DNA from: Pseudoalteromonas sp. GCY
GTDB lineage: Bacteria; Pseudomonadota; Gammaproteobacteria; Enterobacterales; Alteromonadaceae
Length of the DNA stretch: 64,000 nucleotides
NCBI RefSeq assembly: GCF_016695175.1
Contig: NZ_CP068023.1
Location: forward strand, 1,689,501-1,753,500
Direction of reading: 5' to 3'
The translations under genes were made by a program, and so were the position numbers. The notes below the pieces were generated by a model. It made no database searches, was not told where the DNA came from, and was given only the letters and a program-made list of their open reading frames with translations. Of the stretch, positions 17,508 through 59,190 are shown piece after piece; position 1 is the first letter of the stretch; each line of letters begins with the position of its first letter.

Positions 17508-17532
17508 CCTCTAACACTAGAGAGTCAGTAAT

Positions 17533-19386: not shown

Positions 19387-19409
19387 TAACAGTGGGAATG
19401 AGGGTGAGC

Positions 19410-20030: not shown

Positions 20031-20047
20031 ATTAGGGGACAGTTATC

Positions 20048-21052: not shown

Positions 21053-21070
21053 TCAGGATTAATTTCTGAC

Positions 21071-21106
21071 CAAAAGCTCTGCAGATCGCGGAGCTTTTTT
21101 GTTTTT
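21071..21106 (+). terminator. Rho-independent terminator of edd-eda-gap
   Basis: AAAAGCTC(TGCAGATCGC)GGAGCTTTTTTG hairpin followed by T residues. Confidence 0.8.
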
Positions 21107-21154
21107 GACGGAAAAATTGCCATTCTTCCTTATCAATTAGTATAAGTTCCTTGA

Positions 21155-21865
<711 letters not shown>

Positions 21866-38915: not shown

Positions 38916-39962
38916 ATGCTGCGAGCATGTATTTTTAGCGTATTTTCGCTCTCCATACTGATGATTGCCAATAAAAGTAATGGACAATAAGAGAGCCTTG
39001 TAAAGCTCACGGGTGCTTATATGGGACAAACGCCACCAGGAGAAATTGCTGAGCCTTTTGCGCCAGGCATTATCTCAACATCCGGTTGGGAACTAGAAGG
39101 GGTTTTCTCCCCAAATCTAAAGGAGTTTTACTATGTCACTCGAGGTGACAATAACAAAGGCGCGATCGTCAATGGCTTTCGTGAGGTAAACAATGTCTGG
39201 GAAAAGTATCTGGAATTTCCTCGCAATGGCGAAGTGACCTTCTCGCCAGATGGTGAACGTATGCATATGGCAAAAGGTTACAAGGAGCGAACTAAAGGCG
39301 GCTGGTCTGCTCGAAAGAGTGTGGGGCCAGAAATTGATAGAAGTGATTTTGGAGTTATGCGTTTATCGGCCTCATCGGCAGGGACTTACGTTTTTGATGA
39401 TAATCGAGGAGAGGTGATTCGGATTTCGCGGCTACTTGATGGTAACCGAACTGAACCAGTAGAGCTGGGCGCTAATATTAACTCAGGACGATGGACCGCA
39501 CACCCCTTTATCGCACCAGATGAGAGTTACTTAATTTGGGATAGCGAGCGCCCGGAAGGATTCGGCAGTTCGGATTTATACATCAGTTTTAAACAACAAG
39601 ATGGCAGTTGGGGACGTGCTATCAACATGGGTGATAAGGTAAATTCAGACAAATGGGATGCTTATGCTACGGTCACTTCGGATGGCAAATACATATTGTT
39701 TAATCGGGGGATGGATAACGAGAATTCCAATGTCGACATCTACTGGGTAGATGCAAAGATAATTAATGAGTTAAAAACGAAAAATGGCTATTCTGAACCA
39801 AAAAGCCAAGGAGATTTCCCAAGAGATCAGGTGCACGGTATTTCGCTTTCCGCACCACTTGTAGTGAAGTTAAACAACCAGTTCTTTCGGCCTATGACGA
39901 ACGGTTTGATAGCATGCTCTGCACGACCAAAGTCTATCTTTAGGTGTCTGTCATCTAGGTAG
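38916..39962 (+). pseudogene. PD40 beta-propeller secreted protein, nonsense codon and disrupted 3' end
   Basis: The gene starts with a good AAAGGA site and a signal peptide (IFSVFSLSILMIANKSNG). It hits TAA at 38988-38990 (codon 25), after which the frame continues uninterrupted: GAYMGQTPPGEIAEPFAPGIIS, FSPNLKEFYYV, FSPDGERMHMAKGYKERT, APDESYLIWDSERP, SDLYISFKQQDGSWG, VTSDGKYILF and DIYWVDAKII. These are WD40-like PD40 motifs. Its last meaningful part (KLNNQFFRPM) lies in a direct repeat, after which about 20 foreign residues end the frame. A paralogous 3' half is found at 51193-51633. A downstream start at 39021 could still give a cytoplasmic fragment. Confidence 0.75.
39846..39905. repeat. 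Left copy of a ~60-bp direct repeat flanking an 11.3-kb insertion
   Basis: Aligns with 51178-51240 with five mismatches and one 3-bp gap, and both copies encode A-P-L-x-V-(x)-K-L-N-N-Q-F-F-R-P-M in the same reading phase. A block of 33 identical bases includes TTAAACAACCAGTTCTTTCG. Confidence 0.85.
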
Positions 39963-40194: not shown

Positions 40195-40400
40195 TGACGT
40201 CATCGCCTTCTTTGTCGGGCTATTTAAACTTGTCTTTTTTCAAGCCGCTTTTACCACAAAGCGAAGCCGGTGTTATCCCAATACAACACCTTCAGCTTGT
40301 TCTTATTTTTATTATAAAACGCAAACATTTGGCCGCTCATTGCAGACTCAGCCAGTATTCTATGGCCTTGTGTTTAGGTGAAGTTTACTCTGCTCCTAGC
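40195..40400 (-). pseudogene. IS66-family TnpB (ORF2) relic
   Basis: On the minus strand, from 40340 downwards, the sequence reads MSGQMFAFYNKNKNKLKVLYWDNTGFALW, then a stop where Tyr is expected, then KRLEK. A one-base shift leads to DKFK-stop-PDKEGDD, where the stop replaces the conserved Trp. This matches the well-known IS66 ORF2 core (ILYWD-x-x-GF-x-LW-x-KRLE-x-x-x-F-x-WP). Two stops and a frameshift show decay; no complete IS66 transposase is present. Confidence 0.75.
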
Positions 40401-40506
40401 CTTTTTAGCGGAACTTTCGTCAGGTGCTATTGCAAGTCAGTTAAAATTTTTATCCAGCGACTCCTCGTTCAGCGCCGTGTACAGAGAGCCCACACCATCA
40501 AGTAGT

Positions 40507-40556
40507 AATCAACATCTTTAAATTTATGTAAATATTTAAATTTAGAAATGTTGATT
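40507..40556. promoter_or_regulatory. Inverted repeat upstream of the biosynthetic operon
   Basis: AATCAACAT (40507-40515) is mirrored by ATGTTGATT (40548-40556), with a nested AAATTT/AAATTT dyad. It lies about 85 bp before the first gene and may be an operator or a structured leader; no regulator gene is in the cluster. Confidence 0.45.
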
Positions 40557-40638
40557 TGGGGTGAGGCTTTTGTTAATTTTGGTTGGGATTTAAGCATTAT
40601 AAAAGCAGTAATAACATTAAATTAAAGGAATAACGATT

Positions 40639-41658
40639 ATGACAGCCGTCATTAGAGGGATCGGTGTATGTGTCCCACCAAAGATTGTTACTAACGATGA
40701 TATTTCAAAAACACTTGATACCAGCGACCTGTGGATTCGTGAAAGGACGGGAATAGAGCGCCGGTACATGGTAGATGGCGAGATATCCACTATGGATCTC
40801 GCGATTAAAGCCGGGCTCAGGGCAATCGAATCGGCACAAACCAATAAAATAGACATGGTTATTGTTGCAACAACCTCTCCCGAAAGACTTTGCCCGGCAG
40901 TTGCTCCAGAAGTGGCTGACAAAATGGGGCTTAAAGGAGTCGCGGCATACGATATCACGTCTGCTTGCGCCGGATTTGTTTATGGCATGGCAACCGCAAA
41001 GGGCTTTGTGGAAAGCGGCATTGCCGATACTGTTTTGCTTATTGGCGCGGAAGCATTTACAAAATTTGTTAATAAAGATGATAGAACCACTTGGCCAATT
41101 TTTGGCGATGGTGCAGGTGCCATGGTTATCGGCAAAGGAGAGCCAGATGAACTAGGTGCGATTGGCCAATTTGATCTTGGTGCTGATGGTTCTCTCAGCG
41201 ATGCATTATGCACACATGCAGGGGGGGCAAGGCAAAGGGTTAAGGACTCCTTAGGGCAACATGCGCAAAGCCATGCCTACTATCTCAGTATGAATGGCCG
41301 GGTCGTATATGAAAATGCAGTTTCACAAATGACCCAGTCTTCGCTCAAAGCGGTCAGACAGAACGATCTGACCATCGAAGAGTTAGACTGGATGATCGGA
41401 CATCAAGCCAATATCAGAATTCTTCAAACAGTAGCGTATGAGTTAGACCTACCGGAATGTAAAGTAGCCAGCAACATTGCTGATCATGGCAATACGCTTA
41501 CGGCTTCAATTCCATTGCTACTAAACGATTATGCACACAGCAACCAGCTAAAACCAGGTCAGAAACTTCTAATCACAGCATTTGGCGCAGGTTTCTCCTG
41601 GGGGTCAACGGTTGTGACCTGGCCAGATCTCAGAACCTATCAAAAAGAATGGAATTAA
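40639..41658 (+). CDS. Ketoacyl-ACP synthase III (KAS III/FabH-like), operon gene 1
   Basis: The 339-aa enzyme should condense an acyl-CoA starter with malonyl-ACP. The full triad is present: C110 in TSACAGFVYG, H255 in GHQANIR and N285 in DHGNT. It is longer than housekeeping FabH (about 317 aa) and followed directly by a dedicated ACP and KAS II, so it is a pathway-specific starter enzyme. A strong AAAGGAA site precedes the ATG. Starter choice (acetyl, propionyl or branched acyl) cannot be read with confidence. Confidence 0.9.
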   Translation: MTAVIRGIGVCVPPKIVTNDDISKTLDTSDLWIRERTGIERRYMVDGEISTMDLAIKAGLRAIESAQTNKIDMVIVATTSPERLCPAVAPEVADKMGLKGVAAYDITSACAGFVYGMATAKGFVESGIADTVLLIGAEAFTKFVNKDDRTTWPIFGDGAGAMVIGKGEPDELGAIGQFDLGADGSLSDALCTHAGGARQRVKDSLGQHAQSHAYYLSMNGRVVYENAVSQMTQSSLKAVRQNDLTIEELDWMIGHQANIRILQTVAYELDLPECKVASNIADHGNTLTASIPLLLNDYAHSNQLKPGQKLLITAFGAGFSWGSTVVTWPDLRTYQKEWN

Positions 41659-41701
41659 TTTTCCAATCATTTTTCATCAACAAAAAACAAGCGAGGCAAT
41701 T

Positions 41702-41932
41702 ATGTTTTCACTAAACGAACTTAAAACGATCATTGAAACTAGATTCAAAATGGATGTATCTAAAACTTCCGGAGATACTTCTCTCGAAGATATCGGTTTT
41801 GATTCTCTTTCTCAGCTGGATCTTGCTCAGGCGATCCATAAACAACACGGCATTAAAATTAGCGATGATGATATGGAGTCAATCTCAACGCTAGATGATG
41901 TTGTTAACTATGTCAGCGGGAAACTGTCATGA
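41702..41932 (+). CDS. Acyl carrier protein, operon gene 2
   Basis: The 76-aa protein has the phosphopantetheine site FDSLSQLD with S35. The second helix continues QLDLAQAIHKQHGIKI, less acidic than housekeeping AcpP, as in carrier proteins of secondary metabolism. Its stop overlaps the KAS II start (ATGA), so the two are translationally coupled. A 4'-phosphopantetheinyl transferase is not encoded in the cluster and must come from elsewhere. Confidence 0.92.
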   Translation: MFSLNELKTIIETRFKMDVSKTSGDTSLEDIGFDSLSQLDLAQAIHKQHGIKISDDDMESISTLDDVVNYVSGKLS

Positions 41933-43146
41933 GCAATCAACCTGTGGTGATTACCGGTATGGGGATGATCACCCCTGCAGGTAACTCTGTTTCAGAAAAC
42001 TGGGACAATATCATCAAAGGCGAAACCAAAGCGGCTTTAGACCCAAGTCTCGAAGATTGTCCGGTTAAATTAAGTTGCAGAGTCAACAATATCGATGAAC
42101 TGGATATGGAAGTAGCCAAACCTTGGTTTTGGGACGACTATGCAAAGTTCGCCCAACTTGCCACTCTTGAAGCTCTGAGAGCGGCGGGATTGGATCACAA
42201 AAATTGGGAAGATCCGACACGCGTAGCTGTTTTAATCGGCTCTGGCGCCGGCGGTACACAGACATTGGAGGCGCAACATCGCGCTATGTTAGAAGGTGAT
42301 TATGAAGATTTATCTCCTCTGACATTGCCAATGGGGTTATTAAATATGGCTGCCGGGCAAGTTGCTATTGAGGTAAATGCGCTCGGACCGTGCTTTTCTC
42401 CCTGCAGTGCCTGCGCGTCAGGTGCTATGGCAATTGGGCTAGCTAAATATCTAATTAACAACGACATTGCCGATGTGGTCATTGCGGGAGGAGCGGAAGC
42501 TGCCATTACTCCTTTCTATGTCTCGTCGTTTGCAAAAATGCGGACGTTGAGTTTAAACCCCGATCCTGCTACGGCTTCGCGCCCGTTTGACAAAGAGCGA
42601 AACGGGTTTGTTATTGGAGAGGGAGCCGGTGTTCTAATCTTAGAATCTCAGGCACATGCGAGCAAAAGAAATGCCCCTGTAGCTGGTCATTTATTAGGAT
42701 ATGGCTTTTCGGCCGATGCTCATCACGTAACAACGCCTCACCCTGAAGGCGAAGGCGCATTTTTGGCGATGCAAACGGCACTAAAAGATGGGCAATGTCA
42801 CCCTTCAGATGTTGGTTACGTTAATGCGCACGGGACATCAACTAAAGGCAATGATGTTATTGAAAGTGAAGCGATAAAAAGGCTATTTGGCTCACAAGTA
42901 CCAGTTAGCTCAACAAAAGGAGTCACAGGTCACTTACTAGGCGCAGGTGGTGCTATTGAGGCTATTTATTGTCTCAAAGGGCTTCAAAGCGGCGTTATCC
43001 CCGCCAGTGCGAACTTGAAAGAGTTGGACCCAAATATCAATGTAAATGTAATTGCAGGTAACTCCATTGAGCAACAGTATCGCATAGCGCTATCAAATTC
43101 ATTTGGTTTCGGAGGCCAAAACGCGGCGCTGTTGTTATCAAATTAA
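41929..43146 (+). CDS. Ketoacyl-ACP synthase II (FabF-like), operon gene 3
   Basis: The 405-aa condensing enzyme has C162 in SACASGAMA, H301 in VNAHGTSTKGND, K330 and H335 in STKGVTGHLLGAGG, so it is catalytically complete. It would extend the ACP-bound chain with malonyl-ACP after the KAS III step. No chain-length-factor partner or malonyltransferase is present, so malonyl loading must use the housekeeping FabD. Confidence 0.92.
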   Translation: MSNQPVVITGMGMITPAGNSVSENWDNIIKGETKAALDPSLEDCPVKLSCRVNNIDELDMEVAKPWFWDDYAKFAQLATLEALRAAGLDHKNWEDPTRVAVLIGSGAGGTQTLEAQHRAMLEGDYEDLSPLTLPMGLLNMAAGQVAIEVNALGPCFSPCSACASGAMAIGLAKYLINNDIADVVIAGGAEAAITPFYVSSFAKMRTLSLNPDPATASRPFDKERNGFVIGEGAGVLILESQAHASKRNAPVAGHLLGYGFSADAHHVTTPHPEGEGAFLAMQTALKDGQCHPSDVGYVNAHGTSTKGNDVIESEAIKRLFGSQVPVSSTKGVTGHLLGAGGAIEAIYCLKGLQSGVIPASANLKELDPNINVNVIAGNSIEQQYRIALSNSFGFGGQNAALLLSN

Positions 43147-43159
43147 TAAGGAAAATTAT

Positions 43160-44971
43160 ATGGAACTACAGACAAAAAAGGACTTGCAAGGCTTTATCTA
43201 CAACCGAGCTTATGACTTGGATCATAAAGATCTGCAGGTTTTATTACGAGACAATATTTTCAAATACCAAAGTGGTCTTAATATGGCCGAGTTGGGTAAG
43301 CTATCTTATAAAAGAAGTGAATTTATACACTCTAAGATTGAATCTCCTCTAGAGGTACTGGCAAATCCCTCTAGGCTATTTGCCCTTGCTGAGTGGGCAG
43401 GTTTGCTTGATGTATCTTGTTTCTCAATCATCATGGTTCACTATAATCTAACTATGGGTACATTCTATGACCATGCATTACATAACCAAGCGACCGCTGC
43501 AGAATTAGAAGAATTAGATAACCTGAAATCTTTCGGGCCTTATATGGCCACTGAACTAGGGTATGGAAATAATGTTGCCGCATTAAAAACGGAAGCAATC
43601 TATGACCATGATGAAAAGTGCTTCTTTCTGAATACACCTGACTGCCTGGCACAAAAATACATGTCATACAGCGGCTTTTCAGACATACCTAAAATAGCCG
43701 TTGTAATGGCAAGACTAAAAATTAAAGAGAAAGACCACGGTGTGTTTCCCTTTGTTGTTCGTCTTTGCGACGAAAACGGGTTACGTGACGGTATTCAGGC
43801 GATACCTTGCCCAGAAAAACCAGTGCAAGGTCTGGACAATGGCCTCACTTCGTTCCACAACCTGAGAGTCGAGCGAGACCACGCTTTGTTGGGCGAGATC
43901 GCAGCTATCTCAGAAGACGGAGAATTTGTAGCCAATATTAAGAATGTACGAGCAAGATTTTTAAAATCTATGTCGCGCATCATGCCCGGTCGCCTTTGTG
44001 TTTCAAGTGCTGCGCTTGGAGCAGGCAAAGCGAGCTGTTACATTGCCTTGAAATTTGCTCAATATCGTTTATCTAATGCGCCAGGTGCTAGCGATACTGC
44101 AATTATACATTTCCGACCATTCCAGCGAGCGTTGTTTGTTAACTTGAGTAAAGTGTATGCCATGTCTGCATTAACAAACGATGGCAAGACTAAATTCCTC
44201 GATGGTGATGGCAAAGTAGATAACGACTTAACAACTCAAATTAATATCACTAAAGCCATTGTAACCTGGGAAATGGCTGATGTTGTCTCAAACTGCCGAG
44301 AACGAGTTGGCGCTCAGGGGATATTCTCTATAAATAAAATCACTGAATATATTTCCTTGCTGCAAGGCTTAGTAACGGCTGAAGGTGATAACCAAGTCCT
44401 AATTGCCACTGCGGCTGGGCAACTTGTCAATCAGTCTCCTGCGGCGCTTACCCATACAGGTGATGAGCGCCTGAGTGAACTGTCTGTAGAGAATATCATT
44501 ACACTGTTAAACGCGAGAGAAAGCCACTTACATAAGAGCATCTCAGAGAATAAGATAAACTCAGCAGGTAGTTTCTTTGATGAGTGGAATGACAACGCAA
44601 ATGATTCTATTAAGTTAGCCCGTCTGAGAGGCCATCGATTAGCGTTGCAAGCTCAGGCGAAATGGCAATGTGAGTCTTCTGTAGCCCAATCACATTTGGA
44701 AACTTTAGGTCGCTTGTTTGGGTTATCACTTCTAAAAGAAGATTCAGCCTGGTATTGCAGTTGTGATCTGGTAGAGCGTGATCTGATTCATGGCCTGGAC
44801 AGGGAAATCGACAGGCTTTGCCTGCTCCTAGAGCCTCATATCAACACACTCATTGACGCGTTTGGCTATGACGAAGCACTTTTTGATGCACCCATTTGCT
44901 TTCCTGATTATGGCGAACAGTTTACGGCTAGATCCGAGCGCATGAATAGCGAAGGAAAGCGTTATGAATAA
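43160..44971 (+). CDS. Acyl-CoA oxidase-like flavoenzyme, operon gene 4
   Basis: The 603-aa protein has the length and layout of peroxisomal-type acyl-CoA oxidases. The mid-domain segment ELGYGNNVAALKTEAIYD, HGVFPFVVRLCDENG and the C-terminal helical bundle with GAQGIFS are visible. It should insert an alpha,beta double bond into a CoA- or ACP-bound acyl chain and pass electrons to oxygen. Such oxidases are rare in bacterial primary metabolism and usually serve secondary pathways. The ATG after AAGGAAAAT is preferred over an in-frame start inside the KAS II gene. Confidence 0.82.
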   Translation: MELQTKKDLQGFIYNRAYDLDHKDLQVLLRDNIFKYQSGLNMAELGKLSYKRSEFIHSKIESPLEVLANPSRLFALAEWAGLLDVSCFSIIMVHYNLTMGTFYDHALHNQATAAELEELDNLKSFGPYMATELGYGNNVAALKTEAIYDHDEKCFFLNTPDCLAQKYMSYSGFSDIPKIAVVMARLKIKEKDHGVFPFVVRLCDENGLRDGIQAIPCPEKPVQGLDNGLTSFHNLRVERDHALLGEIAAISEDGEFVANIKNVRARFLKSMSRIMPGRLCVSSAALGAGKASCYIALKFAQYRLSNAPGASDTAIIHFRPFQRALFVNLSKVYAMSALTNDGKTKFLDGDGKVDNDLTTQINITKAIVTWEMADVVSNCRERVGAQGIFSINKITEYISLLQGLVTAEGDNQVLIATAAGQLVNQSPAALTHTGDERLSELSVENIITLLNARESHLHKSISENKINSAGSFFDEWNDNANDSIKLARLRGHRLALQAQAKWQCESSVAQSHLETLGRLFGLSLLKEDSAWYCSCDLVERDLIHGLDREIDRLCLLLEPHINTLIDAFGYDEALFDAPICFPDYGEQFTARSERMNSEGKRYE

Positions 44972-45389
44972 GCACTTATATAAATGCCCCGTGAGATGGT
45001 CTGATATGGATGTCTATGGGGTAGTAAATAATGTATCAATCATGCGTTTGCTCGAAGAGGCCAGAGTTGATTTTATTTGGGGGATTTCAAAAAAAAATGG
45101 CGATGCATTTTTCGATCAAGGCTCGGTAGTTGTGTCTCATTCTGTTAGATATCATGCTCCATTGGTTCACAAGCATGAGCCCGTGAACATTACAATGTGG
45201 GTAAGTGACATATCCGCAGCGACAGTAACCATTGCATATACCGTGCATGATGGCGATCGGCTTTGCACTTCAGCTGAAACAACTATGGCACCTTATTGCT
45301 ATAAAAAGTCACGGCCCCGGTCTTTAAGTGCAGCAGAAAGTGCATTTTTCGAGACCTACCTCCATCAGGATAGTGGTGTTACTTCATGA
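44964..45389 (+). CDS. Hot-dog thioesterase (4HBT type), operon gene 5
   Basis: The 141-aa protein starts with VRWSDMDVYGVVNNVSIMRLLEEARVDF, the hot-dog thioesterase motif with the catalytic Asp of the 4-hydroxybenzoyl-CoA thioesterase/YbgC group. It probably releases the finished acyl chain from ACP or CoA. Its start overlaps the preceding stop by 8 bp and its stop overlaps the next start (ATGA), showing tight coupling. Confidence 0.88.
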   Translation: MNKHLYKCPVRWSDMDVYGVVNNVSIMRLLEEARVDFIWGISKKNGDAFFDQGSVVVSHSVRYHAPLVHKHEPVNITMWVSDISAATVTIAYTVHDGDRLCTSAETTMAPYCYKKSRPRSLSAAESAFFETYLHQDSGVTS

Positions 45390-46273
45390 AGTTAGCAACT
45401 ATTTTAAGCAAGGGTAGTCGCTACCCTTGCTTAGTTGACTGCAATGGTGATTTAAGAGATGTGTCGAGCATTATCGGTTCTTGGTATGATACGGCGCTGT
45501 CACTTAGCGCACTCAACACCTTAATTTCCGATGTTAACTTAACCTTATTACCTAAGTTTAATGACCAGGAAGTTCAGTTTCTAGCGCCAATACAGCCAAA
45601 ACAGATCATTTCTATAGGACTAAATTATAGAAAGCATGCTCAGGTAGCGGGCCTTCCTTTACCAAAGGAACCCATTATTTCTTGCAAATCAATTGGCTCT
45701 GTATGTGGACCGACAGATCCAGTGTTAATCCCTACGCACGCCAACCACGTCGACTGGGAAGTTGAACTCGGCGTTGTCATCGGCGAAACCTGCCAATTAT
45801 TGGAGTCAGAGCAACAAGCATACAACTCGATATTAGGGTACTGTGTCGCCAATGACTTCTCAGATAGACAATGGCTACTTGAACGTGAAGGTGAATGGGT
45901 AAAAGGCAAATCTTTTCAAAGTTTTTGTCCTCTAGGACCATATGTTGTGACTGCTGATTCCTTCTCTTACCCTCTGGACCTAACGCTAACTTGTTACGTT
46001 AATGGGGTCTTGAGACAAAATGGAAGTACGACAGACATGGTCTTTACACCTGCCTTTTTAGTGCATTATGTCAGCCAGTTTATGACCTTGTACCCAGGTG
46101 ATGTAATACTGACTGGAAGCCCGGATGGTATATCCCTTGGAAATGACAATATACCCTACCTCAAGCCCGGAGACCGCGTTACAACACACATCAGTCAGCT
46201 AGGTTATCAAGAGCAACTTTGTCAACGTTACCCACAAAGTGAGGACATTCTAAATGAAGAATACACCATCTGA
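45386..46273 (+). CDS. Fumarylacetoacetate hydrolase-family enzyme, operon gene 6
   Basis: The 295-aa protein has the FAH fold marks SIGLNYRKHA, a metal site with E125, E127 (DWEVELGVVIGE) and D157/D160 (NDFSDRQW), GKSFQSFCPLGPYV and ILTGSPDGIS. Family members hydrolyse, decarboxylate, hydrate or isomerise 2-oxo-enoates and acylpyruvates. In this operon it most likely acts on a 2-oxo acid made by the FAD oxidase; which reaction is unknown. It overlaps the aminotransferase start by 20 bp. Confidence 0.85.
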   Translation: MKLATILSKGSRYPCLVDCNGDLRDVSSIIGSWYDTALSLSALNTLISDVNLTLLPKFNDQEVQFLAPIQPKQIISIGLNYRKHAQVAGLPLPKEPIISCKSIGSVCGPTDPVLIPTHANHVDWEVELGVVIGETCQLLESEQQAYNSILGYCVANDFSDRQWLLEREGEWVKGKSFQSFCPLGPYVVTADSFSYPLDLTLTCYVNGVLRQNGSTTDMVFTPAFLVHYVSQFMTLYPGDVILTGSPDGISLGNDNIPYLKPGDRVTTHISQLGYQEQLCQRYPQSEDILNEEYTI

Positions 46274-47279
46274 CTTTGGTCTGACGATGACGCCCCATAT
46301 GGTCACGATAGATTGGCATGAAGCTAACGGCTGGGGCGATATTCATCTTCATAAATATCATGACTTGTCTCTGGCGCCACATTCTCAGTGCTTTCATTAT
46401 GCTCAAGGTGTATTTGAAGGGTTAAAAGCATTTAGGCAAGCAAACAACGATGCGGCATTGTTTAGAGCTTATGATCATGCTCGTCGTTTTCAATCTTCAT
46501 GTGAGCGCTTAGCCATCCCTGTGTTAGGTGAAGATGTGTTTGTTGATGCGTTGCTTACGCTGCTTAAAGCAGATCTTCAATACCTTCCTGATATTAGGGA
46601 GGGTACGCTCTATTTCAGACCCTTCATAATCGCAACTGAGCCATCATTAGGCTTCTATGGTCGAGCTAAAAGCTTCAAGTTTATTGTTATCGCGTGTCCC
46701 ATGAGCAACTATTTTAGCTCAACCAAAGCCATTAACATTATGGTTGAGTCCAATTACAGTCGTTCAGCTAAAGGTGGAACTGGTGCCGTTAAAGCGATTG
46801 GTAATTATGCCGGAACCATCCTCTCTCAGCAGCAGGCCAAAGAACAGAACTATCACCAGGTTCTGTGGTTAGATGCTAACCACAACAAGTATATAGAGGA
46901 GTTAAGCTCCTCAAATATTTTCTTTGTTTATAAAGACAAAGTTATAACACCTCGCCTAAGTGGCTCGATTCTGCCGGGGATCACCAGAGATACCACCATC
47001 AGTCTTATACAGCAAAATAACTTTACCGTTGAAGAATCAAGCATTGAGCTGCAACAACTTATTAATGATTGGTATAACGGCGATCTGTTAGAGGTCTTTG
47101 TCACAGGTACCACCGCGGGTATCACCTCAGTTAAAAAAATTGATTATTTACAGCACAGCCTTAATTTTGAACAGTATTTGACCGCGCAAACACTCGCTCA
47201 GAAGTTATCAGATATTCAAATATCAAACACACCAAATAATCAATCATGGCTAACCAATCTGAATTGTCATAAAAAATAA
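46254..47279 (+). CDS. Branched-chain-type aminotransferase (fold type IV), operon gene 7
   Basis: The 341-aa PLP enzyme resembles type II branched-chain aminotransferases: FHYAQGVFEGLKAFR, LYFRPFIIAT, GGTGAVKAIGNYAG with PLP lysine K180, and LPGITRDT. The usual EEVGTMN active-site loop is replaced by EELSSSN (215-221), suggesting a substrate other than leucine, isoleucine or valine. It would convert a 2-oxo acid made by the pathway into an amino acid. No other branched-chain amino acid genes are near, so a primary-metabolism role is unlikely. Confidence 0.88.
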   Translation: MKNTPSDFGLTMTPHMVTIDWHEANGWGDIHLHKYHDLSLAPHSQCFHYAQGVFEGLKAFRQANNDAALFRAYDHARRFQSSCERLAIPVLGEDVFVDALLTLLKADLQYLPDIREGTLYFRPFIIATEPSLGFYGRAKSFKFIVIACPMSNYFSSTKAINIMVESNYSRSAKGGTGAVKAIGNYAGTILSQQQAKEQNYHQVLWLDANHNKYIEELSSSNIFFVYKDKVITPRLSGSILPGITRDTTISLIQQNNFTVEESSIELQQLINDWYNGDLLEVFVTGTTAGITSVKKIDYLQHSLNFEQYLTAQTLAQKLSDIQISNTPNNQSWLTNLNCHKK

Positions 47280-47304
47280 AACAATTAATTTCAAGGAATT
47301 AGAT

Positions 47305-48042
47305 ATGCATAACAACATTGAAAAAAAAGCGGCTTTCGTATCGGGAGGCGCCAGAGGTATAGGACGAGAAATCGTTCGTCACCTTGTCGCACATGATTAT
47401 AATGTCACATTCACCTATCGAAATAACCGAGAAGCCGCAGAGTCACTAATTCAGGAATGTGATGGTTCTGTGCTCGGTGTACTTAGTAATGCAGCAGATA
47501 AAGATAGCATTTGTCTGGCAATTGAGAAGCACATTACGCAATTTGGAAGATTAGATTATTTGATAAACAATGCGGGTATAAACAGAGATAAGGCTTTTAA
47601 ATCCCTATCTTACGAAGACTGGCAACAAGTTATAGATACTAATCTATCAGGTACCTTTTTACACTGCCAACAGGCAATCAAATATCTTATAGAAACACAA
47701 GGAAGCATTATTAACATTGCGTCTGTATCTGGCTTAATAGGCGTAGCAGGCCAGGCAAATTATGCCGCTAGTAAAGCTGGCATATTGGGTCTCACTCGTT
47801 CACTTGCCAAAGAGTATGCAAGCAGAGGTGTTAATGTTAATGCTCTAGCCCCTGGTTTTATCGTAACGGATATGACAGATAAACTGCACGAGCGAGTAAA
47901 GGAGCAAGTACTGGACTCGATCCCGATGAAGCGATTTGGCAGTGCAAAAGATATTGCAGAAATTGTCACTTTCTTAGGCTCAAACTCTTGTAACTATATG
48001 ACAGGGCAAGTTATTCCTGTTGATGGTGGACTTTCAGTTTAA
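47305..48042 (+). CDS. 3-oxoacyl-ACP reductase (FabG-like SDR), operon gene 8
   Basis: The 245-aa short-chain reductase has the NADPH site SGGARGIGRE, NNAGIN, and the catalytic S140, Y153, K157 (ASVSGL, ANYAASK), and ends MTGQVIPVDGG. It should reduce the beta-keto group formed by the condensing enzymes. Confidence 0.92.
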   Translation: MHNNIEKKAAFVSGGARGIGREIVRHLVAHDYNVTFTYRNNREAAESLIQECDGSVLGVLSNAADKDSICLAIEKHITQFGRLDYLINNAGINRDKAFKSLSYEDWQQVIDTNLSGTFLHCQQAIKYLIETQGSIINIASVSGLIGVAGQANYAASKAGILGLTRSLAKEYASRGVNVNALAPGFIVTDMTDKLHERVKEQVLDSIPMKRFGSAKDIAEIVTFLGSNSCNYMTGQVIPVDGGLSV

Positions 48043-48051
48043 AAAGGAAAG

Positions 48052-49464
48052 ATGATGGTAAGTCAAAATGCATTAACGGTATTTGAAGCACTAAAAAATC
48101 TTGGTGTCGACTGTTCTATGGATGAGGATCAATGCGTCAAGCATGGACAAGATCAGTCACCTATTTCTACCGTGATTTCTCCTGATATAGTCGTGTACCC
48201 GAAGCATACTCAGCATGTGATGGATATTGTATCTATTGCTAATCAAATGAAAATGCCGATTGTGCCTTTCGGAGCTGGTACCTCTGTTGAGGGTCACGTG
48301 CTGCCAATTCATGGGGGGATTGCCATGAATATGACACACATGAACCAAATTCTCGAAATTTCTCCTGAGTCTCTTACAGCAAAAGTGCAACCAGGCGTTA
48401 CCAGAAAGCAGCTTGATCAGGCACTTGCTGCATATAATTTATGTTTTCCAATTGGTCCAGGAGTGAATGCGACGCTAGGTGGGATGTGCTCAACCGGTGC
48501 CAGTGGTACCAATGCTGTTAAGTATGGAACTATGAAAGAAAACGTGCTCGGGCTTGAAGTTGTTACAAGCGAAGGAAAGCTTGCTAAAACAGGCACCAAA
48601 GCGAGAAAAACAAGTGCAGGTTATGACTTGACTAGATTGATGATCGGCAGTGAGGGAACGTTGGGTGTATTCACCGAAATTACTTTGAAGCTTTACCCGG
48701 TACCAGAGCAAATATCTGTGGCCATTTGTTCTTTTGAAAGTATCTCTGACGCAGTCAACTCCGTTATTAGTATAATTCAGAATAGTATTCCTATTGCTCG
48801 AGTAGAGCTGATGGATGGGCATACTGTTTCTTTAGTGAATGATTATAGCCAACTTGAACTATCTGAAATTCCAAAATTAATCTTGGAGTTTCATGGATCG
48901 TCGCAGTATATCAGTGAACAAGTTGAGAGAGTAAATTCAATCGTATCTCAGTTTGGTGGTTCCGAGTTTAATTGGGCAACAGAAAAAGAAGAAAGAAACA
49001 AACTATGGCAGGCAAGACACGATACCTATTATGCCGCTATCGCCTCAAAAGAGAACGCTCGTTCAATTAGCACTGATACATGTGTTCCAATAGATAAATT
49101 GGCTGATTGCTTACTTGAATCGATTAATGAGGTTAACGACTCAGGTCTCCCTTATTTCCTTGTGGGGCATGTTGGAGATGGTAACTTTCATTTCGGATAC
49201 TTGATTGACCCAGATATTGAAGCAGAGAGGCAAACAGCTGAAGCATTAAATTCCAGACTCATCGAACGTGCGATTAAGTTTGAAGGGACTTGTACAGGTG
49301 AGCATGGTGTTGGAATGAGAAAAATACACTATCTGGAACAGGAATTGGGGGCCGAGTCCATTAACCTTATGCAAAAAATTAAACAAGCGCTAGACCCTAA
49401 TAATATCCTCAACCCGGGAAAAGTGGTGCTGCTGAGTTCAGTACAGGAAGACATAGAAGGTTAA
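48052..49464 (+). CDS. FAD-linked 2-hydroxy-acid oxidase/dehydrogenase (GlcD/D-lactate dehydrogenase type), operon gene 9
   Basis: The 470-aa VAO-family protein has an N-terminal FAD domain (MPIVPFGAGTSVEGH, GVNATLGGMCSTGASGTNAV, MIGSEGTLGVFTEITLKL). The C-terminal cap has VGHVGDGNFHF and GEHGVGMRK. Family members oxidise 2-hydroxy acids (D-lactate, glycolate, longer chains) to 2-oxo acids. Next to an aminotransferase and an FAH enzyme this gives a plausible 2-hydroxy to 2-oxo to 2-amino acid sequence; the order is inferred. Confidence 0.88.
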   Translation: MMVSQNALTVFEALKNLGVDCSMDEDQCVKHGQDQSPISTVISPDIVVYPKHTQHVMDIVSIANQMKMPIVPFGAGTSVEGHVLPIHGGIAMNMTHMNQILEISPESLTAKVQPGVTRKQLDQALAAYNLCFPIGPGVNATLGGMCSTGASGTNAVKYGTMKENVLGLEVVTSEGKLAKTGTKARKTSAGYDLTRLMIGSEGTLGVFTEITLKLYPVPEQISVAICSFESISDAVNSVISIIQNSIPIARVELMDGHTVSLVNDYSQLELSEIPKLILEFHGSSQYISEQVERVNSIVSQFGGSEFNWATEKEERNKLWQARHDTYYAAIASKENARSISTDTCVPIDKLADCLLESINEVNDSGLPYFLVGHVGDGNFHFGYLIDPDIEAERQTAEALNSRLIERAIKFEGTCTGEHGVGMRKIHYLEQELGAESINLMQKIKQALDPNNILNPGKVVLLSSVQEDIEG

Positions 49465-49466
49465 GT

Positions 49467-49943
49467 ATGCACACATTAGTAAGTACACCATTTGATGAAC
49501 TACACCTAGGTAAAAAGGTCACTTTATATAAAAAAGTTACTGAATCTGATGTCGAACTGTTTGCACAAGTATCTGGCGATTGTAACCCGCTTCATCTTGA
49601 TGAAGTGTTCGCTCAGCAAAGCGTTTTTAAAACTAGAGTTGCGCATGGCATGCTAAGTGGCGCGTTGATAAGTGCCGCGCTGGCGATGGCAATGCCCGGA
49701 CCTGGGAGTATTTATCTTGGTCAGGACCTAGCATTTTTGGGCGCGGTAAAGATTGATGAAGTTATACGTATAGAGCTTACAGTGCGAGAGAAAATAGGGA
49801 TCAACAAAGTTCGTATCGAAACTAACATTTTCAATAGTGACAACAAGAAAGTGGTTGCAGGAAATGCTCAGTCTTATGTCAGTTCAGATCAACACTCTAT
49901 TGAAGTGAAAGCCTTTCCATTTTCTTATATTGGTATAGTCTAA
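49467..49943 (+). CDS. MaoC-like (R)-hydratase/dehydratase, operon gene 10
   Basis: The 158-aa hot-dog protein has the hydratase motif GDCNPLHLDEVFA (D38, H43) and TRVAHGMLSGALISAALA, as in PhaJ-like (R)-specific enoyl-CoA hydratases. It probably dehydrates the beta-hydroxyacyl intermediate made by the ketoreductase, replacing FabZ. It starts 2 bp after the oxidase stop. Confidence 0.9.
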   Translation: MHTLVSTPFDELHLGKKVTLYKKVTESDVELFAQVSGDCNPLHLDEVFAQQSVFKTRVAHGMLSGALISAALAMAMPGPGSIYLGQDLAFLGAVKIDEVIRIELTVREKIGINKVRIETNIFNSDNKKVVAGNAQSYVSSDQHSIEVKAFPFSYIGIV

Positions 49944-49995
49944 TAGAAATGTCTTAACCGCAGGTTCAATAACACTGAAAAAGGAGTGAGTTAGA

Positions 49996-50919
49996 ATGCA
50001 AAAACAGGAAGGTTTTAGAGGAAACCTCGAAATGATTGCTTCAATGACCATTGCAGGGACCATAGGCTGGTTCGTTGTGATGTCAGAACAATCACCGGAA
50101 ACGGCAGTTTTCTGGCGTTGTTTATTTGGGGCCACTTTCATGCTTTTAGTTTGTTTGTATAAGGGCATTTTTAAACAAGTTAAACTCAATAAGCCGTCAC
50201 TCATATTACTAACAGTTGGCGGTGTAGCTTTATCACTCAACTGGCTGTTTTTATTCAAATCCTTTTCGCTATCATCCATTGCAATTGCTACGATTACTTA
50301 TCATATTGAACCGTTTATACTTGTCTTGCTTGGCGCTATCTTTTTTAAAGAGCATATTTCTACGGACAAAGTGTTGTGGCTAATATGTGCCTTCTTGGGA
50401 ACCATATTTATTATTGTGGGAAAACAAGAAGGAGGGGCGGCGCTCACTGATAAAGACACTTACTTACAAGGCGTATTTTATGCGGTAATAGCCGCGTCCT
50501 TCTATGCAATTGCGGCTATCACGGCCAAAAAGCTGAAGCATATCCCACCTCATATTATTGTGGCATTTCAACTTTTTATTGGTATTTTTGTGCTTCTTCC
50601 ATTTACTCCTTTGGGAGATATTTCTGCCATTTCGGCTGTATCTTGGTCTTTTTTAGTTACGATAGGGATTATTCATACCGGGCTGATGTGTTTACTATTA
50701 TATAGTGCCATTCAGAAAATACCGACCGCTTTGGTGGGAGCGTTGTCTTTCATCTATCCGGTCGTTGCGGTTATCGTTGACTGGGCGGCATTCGATACAC
50801 GCTTGACGTTACTGCAATTCGCTGGTGCCAGTGCAATTTTGATAGGGGCGGCTGGTGTCAATCTCAATTGGCGGATCACAAAGAAAAAGTTAAAAGAAAA
50901 TCGGAATGAGCTCGTTTAG
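49996..50919 (+). CDS. EamA/DMT-superfamily exporter, operon gene 11
   Basis: The 307-aa membrane protein has about ten helices and two EamA repeats (first near 15-140, second near 155-295, with ALVGALSFIYPVVAVIVDW). Relatives such as RhtA and YdcZ-like proteins export amino acids and small metabolites. As the last gene of the biosynthetic operon it is the likely product exporter or self-protection factor. A strong AAAAAGGAGT site precedes the ATG. An amino-acid-like product would fit; this is inference. Confidence 0.85.
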   Translation: MQKQEGFRGNLEMIASMTIAGTIGWFVVMSEQSPETAVFWRCLFGATFMLLVCLYKGIFKQVKLNKPSLILLTVGGVALSLNWLFLFKSFSLSSIAIATITYHIEPFILVLLGAIFFKEHISTDKVLWLICAFLGTIFIIVGKQEGGAALTDKDTYLQGVFYAVIAASFYAIAAITAKKLKHIPPHIIVAFQLFIGIFVLLPFTPLGDISAISAVSWSFLVTIGIIHTGLMCLLLYSAIQKIPTALVGALSFIYPVVAVIVDWAAFDTRLTLLQFAGASAILIGAAGVNLNWRITKKKLKENRNELV

Positions 50920-50937
50920 CTCAAAATAACCTGTATT

Positions 50938-50975
50938 AAACCAGGCAGTCGGCTTTTCAAGGCACACTGTCTGGT
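50938..50975 (+). terminator. Possible terminator of the biosynthetic operon
   Basis: ACCAGGCAGT / ACTGTCTGGT stem with one mismatch, 18 bp after the last stop; no T tract, so efficiency is uncertain. Confidence 0.45.
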
Positions 50976-51043
50976 CTGTACTCATTCATTTTAAGCACCT
51001 CCATAAAAATACCAGATACAACTCACAGAGCATTTTCTGATTT

Positions 51044-51174
51044 GTAAGCGTGCAGCGAACCACACCTAGAGGCTAACGTGCCATGTTAGTAAACTGTCGA
51101 TTTCACACTGTGGCTGAGCCAATGCGTTTAAGCAATGCATCACATAGTCGAATGGTGGTTCGCTGCACGCTTAC
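51044..51174. mobile_element. 131-bp element with 20-bp perfect inverted repeats (GTAAGCG ends)
   Basis: GTAAGCGTGCAGCGAACCAC at 51044-51063 is exactly mirrored at 51155-51174. GTAAGCG termini are typical of IS66-family ends, and an IS66 TnpB relic lies at the other side of the island. No coding capacity. The expected 8-bp target duplication is not seen. It abuts the right direct repeat. Confidence 0.65.
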
Positions 51175-51177
51175 CTC

Positions 51178-51240
51178 CTTTCAGCACCACTTATGGTGAT
51201 GAAGTTAAACAACCAGTTCTTTCGGCCTATGATGAGCGGT
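51178..51240. repeat. Right copy of the ~60-bp direct repeat flanking the island
   Basis: Partner of 39846-39905; same translation phase, so recombination between the copies would fuse the two PD40 fragments into one frame. Confidence 0.85.
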
Positions 51241-51633
51241 CGTGGTCATTTCGGCTTTTCCCTGTTGCGAAACGGCACACAGGAAAACCCGGTTAAGTTA
51301 GGTGGTGATATAAATCAAGGAGGCTGGATAGCACATCCTTATAATGCGCCAGATGAATCCTACTTGATGTGGGACATGGTACGAGAAGATGGCAAAGGTG
51401 GTGCGGATATTTATATTGGCTTTAAGCGACAAGTTGGCGCTTGGTCAAAGTCTATCAATATGGACGATAAAATGAATACCGATCCCCACGAAAGTTCACC
51501 TTGGGTGACGTACGATGACAAATACTTGTTTTTTACGCGAGGCAATAGGGAAGTAAAAGCAGGCGGTGAATGCAATTGGGTTGGTAAATGGTATTGGGTC
51601 GATGCGAAAGCTATCGCTGACCTAAAACCTTAA
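51193..51633 (+). pseudogene. 3' half of a PD40 beta-propeller gene
   Basis: The frame encodes 146 residues that align with the C-terminal half of the PD40 protein at 38916-39962: GGWIAHPYNAPDESYLMWD, GGADIYIGFKRQVGAWSKSINMDDKMNT and KYLFFTRG, ending WYWVDAKAIADLKP. It has no signal peptide or N-terminal blades and lies just after the island boundary, so it is a broken gene. The IS3-family element begins 5 bp after its stop. Confidence 0.75.
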
Positions 51634-51646: not shown

Positions 51647-52863
<1,217 letters not shown>

Positions 52864-55863: not shown

Positions 55864-58641
55864 TTAATGTTCCACTTCTATCCAGTCTTTTTCATCCACC
55901 CAGTTTTGGCTACCTTTTGCAACACTGCGGATCGGCACCAAGTAGTCACAGCTGATCTGTGGTTTCACCGATGCAAAAATTGGCACAAACCCAAAGCTTA
56001 GCGCGGTTTCGATAATGGCCTTTTGGTTTTGCGGGTCGATGTCCGCGGCTTCATCAATGTAAATTGGGATGCGATACATCGCTTGCTCTTGATCAGATAA
56101 CAGATAGCGAATAAATAGCATGCCACATAAAAGCTTGATGGTGATCCGCGTACCGTTTGAACCGGCCGAGTCAATTTTATCAAAGTGCTCAGTATCACCT
56201 GCGCGGTTGACCACTTCAAAGCGAATGTCAAAGAGATCGGTTAACGTCAATCCCGCTTTATCACTTGCAAGTTTGATGATGTGATCTTTCGCCTCATTAA
56301 CAGACTTTTCTGAGCTAGGCTGCTCACTAAGTAAGTCTAAGCTTTCGCCTTTTTCATATAAATCTGAAGTGCTAATAATGGTATCTATGCTATCAACTAG
56401 CATCTTACGAGGGATGACATTGATTTTGAATGCCTGCAAGTTAGAGATACGATGCTGGCTTATGCCTTTGTTAAAGCTGTTCATCTCTCGGCGTAAGCGG
56501 TCTAAGTCTTGACGCAGTCCTTTAATGGTTGCGGCCACTTCAGTGAGTGCCACTCGTGCTTGTTTATCGACGGCATCTCGTTCGTTATCTAAGTTATGAT
56601 ACGCGCTGATCAGCTTTTGATACTTAATGGTAACGTCTGACTCGTTTTCAAACTTAGTGATCCCAGCATTGTAGATATGCAAGTAGGTATTACGCACATT
56701 AACGTCTAAGTTTCTAAGCTCATTACAATCTTTATTAAACTGGTGGATCACTTCAGAGAGATTATCAAAATCAAGATTAATTTCGATTTCATACGGTGCC
56801 AGCTTACCCGAATATAGGTCTAGTGTGTGGTCGATACGTTCTGACTTCACTTGCTTTAGGCGGTCGGCTTGGCGCACCAATAAGTCTTGCTTGCTTTTAA
56901 TGATAGAACGGCGGTCTGAAATCGAACCAGCATTACGTTGAATATCATGTAAATATTCATCAACTTGCTCTCGTTCCATCTCTAGTTGCTCTTTTAGTGC
57001 TTGTTGAGCATCGACTGATTGCAACATAGTTTGATATTGCTCAAAGCGCTTCATGGCCGCTTCGGTAGCCATGAGTTCATCATAAAGTGCATCACGCTCT
57101 TTTTGCTTTTCAGCGACGTTTGCGGCTACTTCACGCTGTTGCTTTAAATCGCTAAGTGATTGTTGTAGTGACTCCAGCTGTGCTTGCAGTTGGGCTTTGT
57201 TCTCACCGCTTTGCATTTGCACTGGACTTAGTTTTTTCAACTTAACGGTAGCACCTGGTACTTTAAGCTCACCACCTTGAACTGACTTAGATAGCGACTC
57301 TAAAAATGCGCCAAAGGCTTCTTCGTCGGTGATATCAATTTCACCTTGAGAGGTGGTTGAAAACGATAACAAATCTGGATTCAAGATCCGTGAGATCTCT
57401 TCCACTTCTTTTAAAGAAAGATCTTCACGCATACGAGTAAACAGGTTGAACTCAAGGTTCTTGAGTTGCAGTTTTAAACTCTTAATTTGCTTTTGTGTTT
57501 CATTAATGCGGAAATCAAGGGTATGGAGACTTTGCCCTTGTGCACTATTAATAGAGAAGGAAAGTTGCTCATATTCCTTTTTCAACAGAGTTAAATTGGT
57601 TTTAAGCGTTGCATGATTAGTCAGTTCAAATTCACGTTTTAACGCGTGGAAATCGGTAAACCATTGCTCTATTTGGGTTTGCTTACGCTCGATATCGCGA
57701 GACTGTTGGACGTACAGCTGCTGCTTAGACTCAAATTCGTGCTTTTCGGCTTCTATGTCTTCTAGCTGTGTTGCCAATTCTGCAATTTGCTCGTTGTGAT
57801 AGTTATCATATTCGACCAAAGCTAAATCGAGTTTCGGGGCGTAAGCCGCCAGTTTACCTTTTAATACAGCCTCATTTTCAAGCATTTTCTCAAGGGCTGA
57901 AATTGGCTCTTGCATCGACTCCAGCGCATTCAGCTCACGGCGCGCACGGTTGACCTTATCAAAAGCGCGACGCCAGACTTCATAAAAGTCGACTTTAGAG
58001 TTCGACATATGGCGTTCGAACACCTTGAGCATAAAGCGCTTTACGTCCTGCGCACCGAGTTTGTGCAGATTCAGAATACGACGGAATATTTCTTTGTATA
58101 CTGGTGCATCTTGGACATTATTCAGCGGGATCATCTTCAGGTTGATATCACCATCAAATGGTGTGGCGCCACCTGTGAGTAGGGCATTAAGTTCTTGTGC
58201 TTTTAGCTCTACAGGTTTGAGTTGTTTTTCCTGTAAGTGATTAAATAGCTTAGTGTACTTGATGATACTTTTACCTTGGGTGTAATCATCAAGATTCAGT
58301 TTGCCTTGATAGCAAAAAAACTGGTGCGCGTAACCGGCAATTTTACCCAGTCCCGCAACGCCAATGACCACATCGCCGTGGGGGAGGTTGGCTTCAAGCA
58401 AAATATAGGATTGATCAGAAGAAAAGTAGAACTTACGCGTTTCTTCTAAATCGTGACCATCCCATTCAGTCAGTCTTAAATCGTTGATAAGTGGAAACTG
58501 CAGCGCATTGATCACCGAGCTTTTACCGGTGTTATTCGGAGCGCAGATAGACGCGCTTTTATCCAGAGGAATGACACACTTAGCGTATCCGGCGGTATTT
58601 AATAATGCTAGTTTACTTAAGCCGTACAACTGCTCGCTCAT
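55864..58641 (-). CDS. mksB: Condensin subunit MksB, SMC-like ATPase
   Basis: The 925-aa protein has the Walker A motif APNNTGKSS (34-42) and long coiled coils (about 240-450 and 480-770) around a small hinge. An ABC-like signature segment (DSAGSNGTR) and Walker B IPIYIDEAADIDP lie near the C-terminus. This is the MukB-like ATPase of the MksBEF bacterial condensin, which compacts and helps segregate DNA. It is translationally coupled to mksE (overlap of 4 bp). The related Wadjet plasmid-defence systems have an extra topoisomerase VI-like nuclease (JetD/MksG), which is absent here, so a chromosome-maintenance role is favoured. Confidence 0.88.
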   Translation of the reverse strand: MSEQLYGLSKLALLNTAGYAKCVIPLDKSASICAPNNTGKSSVINALQFPLINDLRLTEWDGHDLEETRKFYFSSDQSYILLEANLPHGDVVIGVAGLGKIAGYAHQFFCYQGKLNLDDYTQGKSIIKYTKLFNHLQEKQLKPVELKAQELNALLTGGATPFDGDINLKMIPLNNVQDAPVYKEIFRRILNLHKLGAQDVKRFMLKVFERHMSNSKVDFYEVWRRAFDKVNRARRELNALESMQEPISALEKMLENEAVLKGKLAAYAPKLDLALVEYDNYHNEQIAELATQLEDIEAEKHEFESKQQLYVQQSRDIERKQTQIEQWFTDFHALKREFELTNHATLKTNLTLLKKEYEQLSFSINSAQGQSLHTLDFRINETQKQIKSLKLQLKNLEFNLFTRMREDLSLKEVEEISRILNPDLLSFSTTSQGEIDITDEEAFGAFLESLSKSVQGGELKVPGATVKLKKLSPVQMQSGENKAQLQAQLESLQQSLSDLKQQREVAANVAEKQKERDALYDELMATEAAMKRFEQYQTMLQSVDAQQALKEQLEMEREQVDEYLHDIQRNAGSISDRRSIIKSKQDLLVRQADRLKQVKSERIDHTLDLYSGKLAPYEIEINLDFDNLSEVIHQFNKDCNELRNLDVNVRNTYLHIYNAGITKFENESDVTIKYQKLISAYHNLDNERDAVDKQARVALTEVAATIKGLRQDLDRLRREMNSFNKGISQHRISNLQAFKINVIPRKMLVDSIDTIISTSDLYEKGESLDLLSEQPSSEKSVNEAKDHIIKLASDKAGLTLTDLFDIRFEVVNRAGDTEHFDKIDSAGSNGTRITIKLLCGMLFIRYLLSDQEQAMYRIPIYIDEAADIDPQNQKAIIETALSFGFVPIFASVKPQISCDYLVPIRSVAKGSQNWVDEKDWIEVEH

Positions 58642-59186
58642 AGCTCGTCCTCAATATCATATTGTTCTTCGTTTACTTCCATTAGCGCGTCAATGTAGCG
58701 ATAAATCGGTGCAAGTAGCATAAAGCCTTGCTCAACCTCACGGGCTAGACCCAGTCTCACCATACGTAAAAACACGTCTTTTCTGAGATCTGAGCCCGAA
58801 AAAATCTCCAACTGGTCAAAAAGATGCTTATTGAGCTGCACTATGGTTTGCATTAGCTCTAAATCGCAGCTTTCATCAAATAGTACGCGAAGCGGATCTT
58901 TACCTTGGTTGGCATAGTGCTCAATCAAAATATAAATGGTTAGGGCAATCGCACGGGAAATTTTCCCCATATTTGGCGTGCTTTCATCGCTTGCCAAATA
59001 GTAAAAGCCACGGGCATCGTGCTGTAAGTCATGGCCTAAGGCTGAAAATAGCGCTTGATAGCTATCAATTTGCTGATCTAATTCTTGCCAAAGGGTAGTG
59101 TCTTGCTCACAGATATGATACCCGCTCACCAGTTTTTTATTAATGGCTTGGAGTTCATTGAGCATGTCTAAGTTAATTGTCGTCAT
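58638..59186 (-). CDS. mksE: Condensin subunit MksE (kite protein)
   Basis: The protein is about 182 aa from the ATG of MTTINLDMLNEL; a GTG start at 59213 that overlaps mksF is an alternative. Winged-helix-rich, with an acidic C-terminus (EVNEEQYDIEDEL). Length and position between mksF and mksB identify it as the kite subunit that binds the kleisin. It overlaps the mksB start. Confidence 0.82.
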   Translation of the reverse strand: MTTINLDMLNELQAINKKLVSGYHICEQDTTLWQELDQQIDSYQALFSALGHDLQHDARGFYYLASDESTPNMGKISRAIALTIYILIEHYANQGKDPLRVLFDESCDLELMQTIVQLNKHLFDQLEIFSGSDLRKDVFLRMVRLGLAREVEQGFMLLAPIYRYIDALMEVNEEQYDIEDEL

Positions 59187-59190
59187 AATG

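Follow-up and report, generated by a model that had tools for sequence, protein, structure and literature searches.

A rare bacterial operon that may join a stand-alone fatty-acid-type module to amino acid formation

A 64,000-nt stretch of the Pseudoalteromonas sp. GCY genome (the window, to which positions refer unless a locus is named) carries on its plus strand, at 40639-50919, an operon of eleven genes in which a discrete fatty-acid-type module is joined to a tail predicted to turn a 2-hydroxy acid into an amino acid. Judging from sequence, we hold with moderate confidence that this operon makes and exports an L-2-amino acid, small and hydrophobic to mildly polar, derived from a short chain carried on an acyl carrier protein (ACP). 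The likeliest product is a short amino acid that resembles the branched-chain amino acids and is perhaps itself unsaturated or branched. If this is true, the operon represents an unassigned biosynthetic family making branched-chain amino acid mimics in unrelated bacteria, by a pathway short enough for reconstitution from purified enzymes. No described cluster with the same gene set was found in the open-licence literature (MIBiG lay outside this comparison), in keeping with the view of an earlier sequence-only reading of this DNA that the logic of the operon is apparently undescribed.

Organization of the operon

All eleven open reading frames (ORFs) are intact (Table 1). The ACP and KAS II genes overlap by 4 nt, those of the acyl-CoA oxidase-like flavoprotein (ACOX) and the thioesterase by 8 nt, those of the thioesterase and the FAH-superfamily enzyme by 4 nt and those of the FAH enzyme and the aminotransferase by 20 nt; the remaining junctions are gaps of 43, 13, 25, 9, 2 and 52 nt in 5' to 3' order, the last being the widest. 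These coordinates bear out the earlier description of eleven co-directional genes with overlaps or short gaps, and Pfam and NCBIfam agree with the family names that it had given to all eleven. The spacing of the junctions is operon-like and suggests that the genes are co-transcribed. The block is not a chance assembly, because the same block is conserved in several phyla (see below). Consensus scans found 20 promoter-like sites against a shuffle mean of 25.8, which is no excess, and 11 terminator-like sites against 9.6 in shuffles, which adds nothing to the case for an operon; an Rfam scan returned no family above threshold, and the base composition of the operon is unremarkable within the window. 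The start codon of ACOX is probably the ATG at 43160 rather than a TTG upstream at 43103.

KAS III, KAS II, ACP and the ketoreductase score above their family cut-offs and contain catalytic-residue motifs (in KAS III the Cys-His-Asn pattern that we take to be its active site), and together they constitute a discrete type II fatty acid synthase/polyketide synthase module of predicted activity. No NCBIfam model matched ACOX at E 0.001. The oxidase dependent on flavin adenine dinucleotide (FAD) scored 364.5 bits against the GlcD equivalog TIGR00387, under the cut-off of 567.9, and its nearest solved relative is LDHD (437 bits).

Table 1. Genes of the operon and extent of the island that contains it.
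Feature	Position	Strand	Basis
KAS III (FabH-like), starter condensation	40639..41658	+	NF006829 371.3 bits, cut-off 249; Cys-His-Asn motifs in sequence
Acyl carrier protein, DSL serine	41702..41932	+	PF00550 49.9 bits, cut-off 20.8
KAS II (FabF-like), elongation, active-site Cys	41929..43146	+	NF005589 449.3 bits, cut-off 387
ACOX, acyl-CoA/ACP oxidase-like flavoprotein, predicted desaturation	43160..44971	+	PF22924 56.3 bits, cut-off 27; PF01756 39.7, cut-off 22.1
4HBT (YbgC-like) thioesterase, predicted free-acid release	44964..45389	+	PF13279 65.8 bits, cut-off 25.5
FAH-superfamily enzyme	45386..46273	+	PF01557 208.4 bits
Class-IV aminotransferase, BCAT type II, predicted final amination	46254..47279	+	NF009897 352.2 bits, cut-off 307; TIGR01123 297.1, cut-off 250.05
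FabG-like ketoreductase (SDR)	47305..48042	+	NF009466 249.1 bits, cut-off 222
FAD D-2-hydroxy-acid dehydrogenase, mammalian-LDHD type	48052..49464	+	PF02913, PF01565; 437 bits to LDHD structure 8jdc
MaoC-type (R)-enoyl hydratase/dehydratase	49467..49943	+	PF01575 79.2 bits; 141.7 bits to (R)-specific enoyl-CoA hydratase 5cpg
EamA-family exporter	49996..50919	+	PF00892 115.1 bits
Island with whole operon and leader, 10.8 kb	40219..51043	+	98.3% identical and collinear with P. flavipulchra L002 7060-17882

A conserved core travels with the oxidase and the aminotransferase

A scan with an ACOX alignment, taking one genome per species, returned 269 relatives, and the best 80 of the 269 loci were analysed. 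The FAH gene is present in 25 of the 80, from Pseudomonas, Paraburkholderia, Massilia, Mitsuaria, actinomycetes and P. flavipulchra; soil Pseudomonas, bacteria of the Burkholderia type and Streptomyces are among those that share the core. All 25 of these loci have KAS III and KAS II, 24 have the thioesterase and 23 the ketoreductase; ACP passed the tblastn cut-off in 24, and in the other locus, that of Rhodococcus (L033), it is present as an ORF. The order KAS III-ACP-KAS II-ACOX-thioesterase-FAH is conserved in 24 of the 25, the Rhodococcus locus having no thioesterase and an FAH gene placed further on.

The D-2-hydroxy-acid oxidase accompanies FAH in 25/25 loci and is found in only one of the 55 FAH-less loci (L070), and the branched-chain aminotransferase (BCAT) is present in 17/25 against 0/55, although seven of these FAH-less loci span less than 15 kb and truncation may explain some absences. 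Neither enzyme occurs in any of the 16 FAH-less loci nearest by ACOX (within L002-L042). Pairwise identities between genes correlate (r 0.68-0.99 over 28 gene pairs), with a contribution from common species descent. A midpoint-rooted tree of KAS III, KAS II and ACOX from 36 taxa, read without branch supports, groups the operon with Mitsuaria and Rhodococcus, beside other proteobacteria and apart from other actinomycetes. Agarilytica rhodophyticola encodes an ACOX and an aminotransferase 63% and 54% identical to the operon proteins, and no FAH from it appeared at the search cut-off. Ten proteins neighbouring the FAH-less loci L019, L023 and L031 comprise regulators, sigma factors, an oxidoreductase and another EamA protein, with no hint of a product.

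What had been presented as the gene set of one operon is, by neighbourhood comparison, a family found in 25 of the best 80 loci, but not with all of its members: the aminotransferase lies outside the cluster in Pseudomonas, Paraburkholderia and Massilia, and MaoC is not part of the core. The operon MaoC is matched in P. flavipulchra and, over only 43% of its length, in the FAH-less locus L027; Rhodococcus L033 has a separate MaoC-domain protein.

Two functions are retained by exchanged proteins. The oxidase is LDHD-like in eight proteobacterial loci (49-58% identity) and in P. flavipulchra (99%), whereas it is GlcD-like in 16 actinomycete loci (30-34%), where it is divergently transcribed in 15 of the 16. 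The exporter is of the EamA family in six loci, those of P. flavipulchra and of five Pseudomonas whose clusters begin with a relative 51-52% identical to the operon EamA, and of the AzlC family in ten others; the two AzlC members scanned score above the Pfam and below the NCBIfam azlC cut-off. Both the AzlC and the EamA families include amino-acid exporters. This replacement of oxidase and exporter by distant or unrelated proteins argues that the pathway requires both D-2-hydroxy-acid oxidation and the export of a product resembling an amino acid.

Catalytic and pocket residues

The catalytic residues expected of these families are present, with one departure in FAH. All 41 aligned ACOX proteins have a TAEGD motif with a catalytic-type Glu, which we take to be the catalytic residue. 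The operon FAH retains the fold (PF01557) and reads H-A-Q-V, with Val in place of the Glu of the H-x-x-E motif, and thus lacks the His-x-x-Glu dyad of C-C hydrolases. By sequence its nearest solved relative is L-2,4-diketo-3-deoxyrhamnonate hydrolase (8gsr, 213 bits), from which it differs by this Val, and it scores 254.6 bits against the NCBIfam model of that hydrolase, far under the cut-off of 500. Among 23 cluster FAHs (the operon and 22 loci, leaving out the P. flavipulchra locus as well as L007 and L022, whose matches were only partial) the fourth position is Glu in 16, Gln in five, Asp in one and Val in one, so that seven of the 23 are non-Glu. Cluster FAHs keep the WE-x-EL region, and the H-x-x-E Glu is present in both solved relatives compared. 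Provided that this Glu is required for hydrolysis, as work on FAHD1 is reported to show, hydrolysis is not what has been conserved among these proteins, though 16 of 23 keep the residue. Because of its Val, the operon FAH is probably not a C-C hydrolase.

The operon aminotransferase has the features of a class-IV BCAT, including a Lys in a GAVK motif that is presumably the pyridoxal phosphate lysine, and the only other match to it in the source genome is an IlvE-type protein of 31% identity. In 17 of 18 cluster BCATs (a set that includes those of P. flavipulchra and Rhodococcus L033) a Ser precedes the conserved Asn and Ser or Thr replaces the Ala of GTA, whereas the four solved BCATs compared (three of mycobacterial type, the fourth a human variant) carry Met at the position of that Ser. 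These pocket changes suggest a substrate unlike Leu, Ile or Val, possibly more polar.

Proposed pathway and its redox balance

From the gene content and co-occurrence we infer an order of steps, a chain length and a product. KAS III would load a short acyl-CoA, KAS II may elongate the chain, and the beta carbon would be processed by the ketoreductase together with MaoC or host dehydratases. The ACOX would introduce an unsaturation and the 4HBT thioesterase would release the free acid. The released acid would then become a D-2-hydroxy acid, which the LDHD-type flavoenzyme is predicted to oxidize to the 2-oxo acid, with the FAH-fold enzyme acting on the 2-hydroxy or 2-oxo acid as a non-hydrolytic tautomerase, isomerase or hydratase. 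The BCAT-like enzyme would aminate the 2-oxo acid and EamA would export the amino acid. By our own arithmetic, two electrons removed by ACOX and two by LDHD, together with one water, convert the C2 methylene into a carbonyl; these four electrons cover the whole change, which means that a plain 2-amino acid can be reached without an oxygenase, and family scans found no oxygenase family in the island. The possibility that ACOX also epoxidizes or alpha-hydroxylates its substrate was considered and dropped for want of support.

Several observations weigh against the proposed unit. To our knowledge no cluster family has a known reaction by which C2 of an acid is hydrated or oxygenated, and MaoC chemistry would place the hydroxyl on C3. 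The aminotransferase is missing from the cluster in seven loci of Pseudomonas, Paraburkholderia and Massilia (an eighth, L022, ends at a contig edge), which implies that amination there proceeds via another enzyme or that the product is the 2-oxo acid; such clusters may release the 2-oxo acid as it is or rely on amination by the host. The Rhodococcus L033 aminotransferase, 29% identical to that of the operon, has Met and Ala at the two pocket positions, as ordinary BCATs do, and the correlation of gene identities is in part expected from shared species history alone. The scheme of the sequence-only reading, in which a chain is built, desaturated, released, turned into a 2-oxo acid, aminated and exported, therefore stands in part: FAH, D-2-hydroxy-acid oxidase and aminotransferase co-travel across phyla while oxidase and exporter are swapped, but no enzyme was found for the C2 hydroxyl.

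The only conserved candidate for supplying the C2 oxygen is FAH, whose family acts on free 2-oxo acids and for which this role is putative; we know of no precedent for FAH in placing a C2 hydroxyl. A more specific proposal is that bacteria of several phyla share an oxygenase-free route from acyl-ACP to 2-amino acids, consisting of 2,3-unsaturation by the oxidase, an unprecedented addition of water on C2 assisted by an FAH-fold protein whose hydrolase Glu is relaxed or lost, flavin oxidation to the 2-oxo acid, and transamination. The exporters would differ among hosts, and the end products might resemble furanomycin. We consider this route unlikely as it stands, and offer it tentatively. If true, marine gammaproteobacteria, betaproteobacteria and actinomycetes would have in it an unrecognized way of making non-proteinogenic amino acids.

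Accessory genes and the origin of the starter unit

Accessory neighbours were identified by ORF clustering, and one representative of each cluster was scanned. A homologue of the homodimeric 2-oxo-acid dehydrogenase E1 (about 900 aa, family F20) directly follows the ketoreductase in three Pseudomonas loci (L005, L006 and L007, at about 15350-18077); that of L005 scores 1401.7 bits against TIGR03186, for which the cut-off is 1408.3, and lies above the aceE cut-off. Paraburkholderia and Massilia clusters are accompanied by a flavin-dependent monooxygenase, a flavin reductase, a glutathione S-transferase, an MFS transporter and a second LeuB (3-isopropylmalate dehydrogenase; L011 18788-20338 in Paraburkholderia, L014 4932-6044 in Massilia). 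Each of these two genomes has another leuB above the family cut-off, and the extra copy may be a resistance copy or a biosynthetic enzyme.

A BCAT and a FabH-type KAS III are the usual pairing for branched starters. Accordingly, the aminotransferase could instead convert Leu, Ile and Val into 2-oxo acids from which branched acyl-CoA starters for KAS III are made, the product then being an unsaturated branched acid instead of an amino acid. The E1 homologues just downstream in three Pseudomonas loci, the extra LeuB in two betaproteobacterial loci and the ordinary BCAT pocket of L033 are consistent with this scheme, which we nonetheless regard as rather unlikely: the Pseudoalteromonas island holds no 2-oxo-acid dehydrogenase, the D-2-hydroxy-acid oxidase (25/25) and FAH are left unexplained, and the two exporter families, as noted, include exporters of amino acids.

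In Streptomyces paradoxus (L017) a protein of non-ribosomal peptide synthetase type, with condensation, AMP-binding and carrier domains, is encoded near the cluster at 18655-21795; in this species the amino acid might end up as part of a peptide. Three large neighbouring ORFs (in L011, L013 and L017) proved not to be tRNA synthetases.

Comparison with furanomycin and other pathways

According to Trippe et al. (2013), furanomycin is made from acetate and propionate by a polyketide route in P. fluorescens SBW25 and S. threomyceticus, and the pathway genes were then unidentified (PMC3662646). In likeness to this route, the product proposed here is a polyketide-derived free amino acid, and the host types of the producers known as of 2013, a Streptomyces and a Pseudomonas, occur among the cluster hosts. 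The cluster family might thus encode the furanomycin pathway itself or a close relative, with a propionyl starter, two acetate units, a dihydrofuran ring and transamination. A PccB/mmdA-like carboxyltransferase near 12 FAH-type and three other loci could act on propionyl-CoA, as could the E1-like proteins, and the more polar BCAT pocket positions in 17/18 also agree with this identification. It nevertheless seems improbable to us. The conversion of 3-hydroxyhept-4-enoate to the 2-oxo acid of furanomycin needs six electrons, whereas one reaction each of ACOX and LDHD would account for four, leaving the core one two-electron oxidation short by our own count. A self-resistance copy of isoleucyl-tRNA synthetase was not found in ten cluster genomes, each of which has a single copy, although such an extra synthetase is not a defining trait, and neither known producer is among the best 80 of the 269 loci. 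If the proposed pathway is right, it supplies a gene set that can be tested against furanomycin, and it raises the question of how C2 of the released acid gains oxygen without an oxygenase.

The KAS III-ACP-KAS II arrangement recalls the RedP/Q/R cassette of prodiginine biosynthesis, which is likewise a self-contained type II set for starting and elongating fatty-acid chains; here, however, ACOX, thioesterase, FAH, D-2-hydroxy-acid oxidase and aminotransferase follow. The 2-amino-fatty-acid pathways of fungi that lead to HC-toxin and apicidin also pass from a fatty chain through a 2-hydroxy to a 2-oxo acid and then use a BCAT-like aminotransferase, but they employ a fatty acid synthase and oxygenases for C2, unlike the Pseudoalteromonas island, in which no oxygenase family was found.

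Distribution, island and flanking DNA

The cluster is rare. ACOX was found at E <= 1e-50 in one of 99 Pseudoalteromonas genomes and at E <= 1e-80 in one of 369 sampled Gammaproteobacteria genomes, in both cases the source genome itself, and the Pseudomonas ACOX of L003 in three of 398 sampled Pseudomonas genomes, its own included. The patchy distribution suggests that the cluster has spread by horizontal transfer. This rarity also bears on whether the operon might degrade an unusual acid by means of the oxidase, hydratase, FAH and 2-hydroxy-acid dehydrogenase. The ACOX, MaoC, FAH and LDHD families are indeed common in degradation, but besides its presence in only 1/99 Pseudoalteromonas genomes, the operon has a dedicated ACP, KAS III and KAS II with active-site residues, lacks a CoA ligase or thiolase among its eleven genes, and encodes an EamA exporter-type protein and no recognized uptake system. 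A catabolic role is very improbable on these grounds, and biosynthesis remains the preferred function.

By sequence the host appears close to P. flavipulchra, and the ACOX of the two is 99% identical (locus L002). The DNA on both sides of the shared island (Table 1) differs between the source strain and P. flavipulchra L002. A sister genome (G014), which had no ACOX match in the Pseudoalteromonas genome search, retains the flanking DNA, on the left up to about 38828 and on the right beginning at 54996, but the island is absent from this collinear region.

Several features lie at or near the island edges. A MITE-like element of 131 bp (MITE, miniature inverted-repeat transposable element) with perfect 20-nt inverted ends abuts the right edge at 51044-51174, and two more partial copies of 85-88% identity occur elsewhere in the genome. 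A 41-nt direct repeat, 95% identical between its copies, flanks the operon at 39865-39905 and 51200-51240; one copy sits at a PD40-type gene (39021-39962) and the other at a fragment related to it (51193-51633), and the repeat is perhaps a trace of recombination. Just past the island, on the minus strand at 51647-52863, is a transposase pair consisting of an rve integrase core and a small ORF resembling the first ORF of IS3. Farther on, a minus-strand set of three genes at 55864-60435 encodes a 414-aa protein, MksE (PF21980, 143 bits) and a 925-aa SMC-like protein with a weak match to JetC (27 bits); this set probably specifies a condensin of the MksBEF type and is not a clear Wadjet system.

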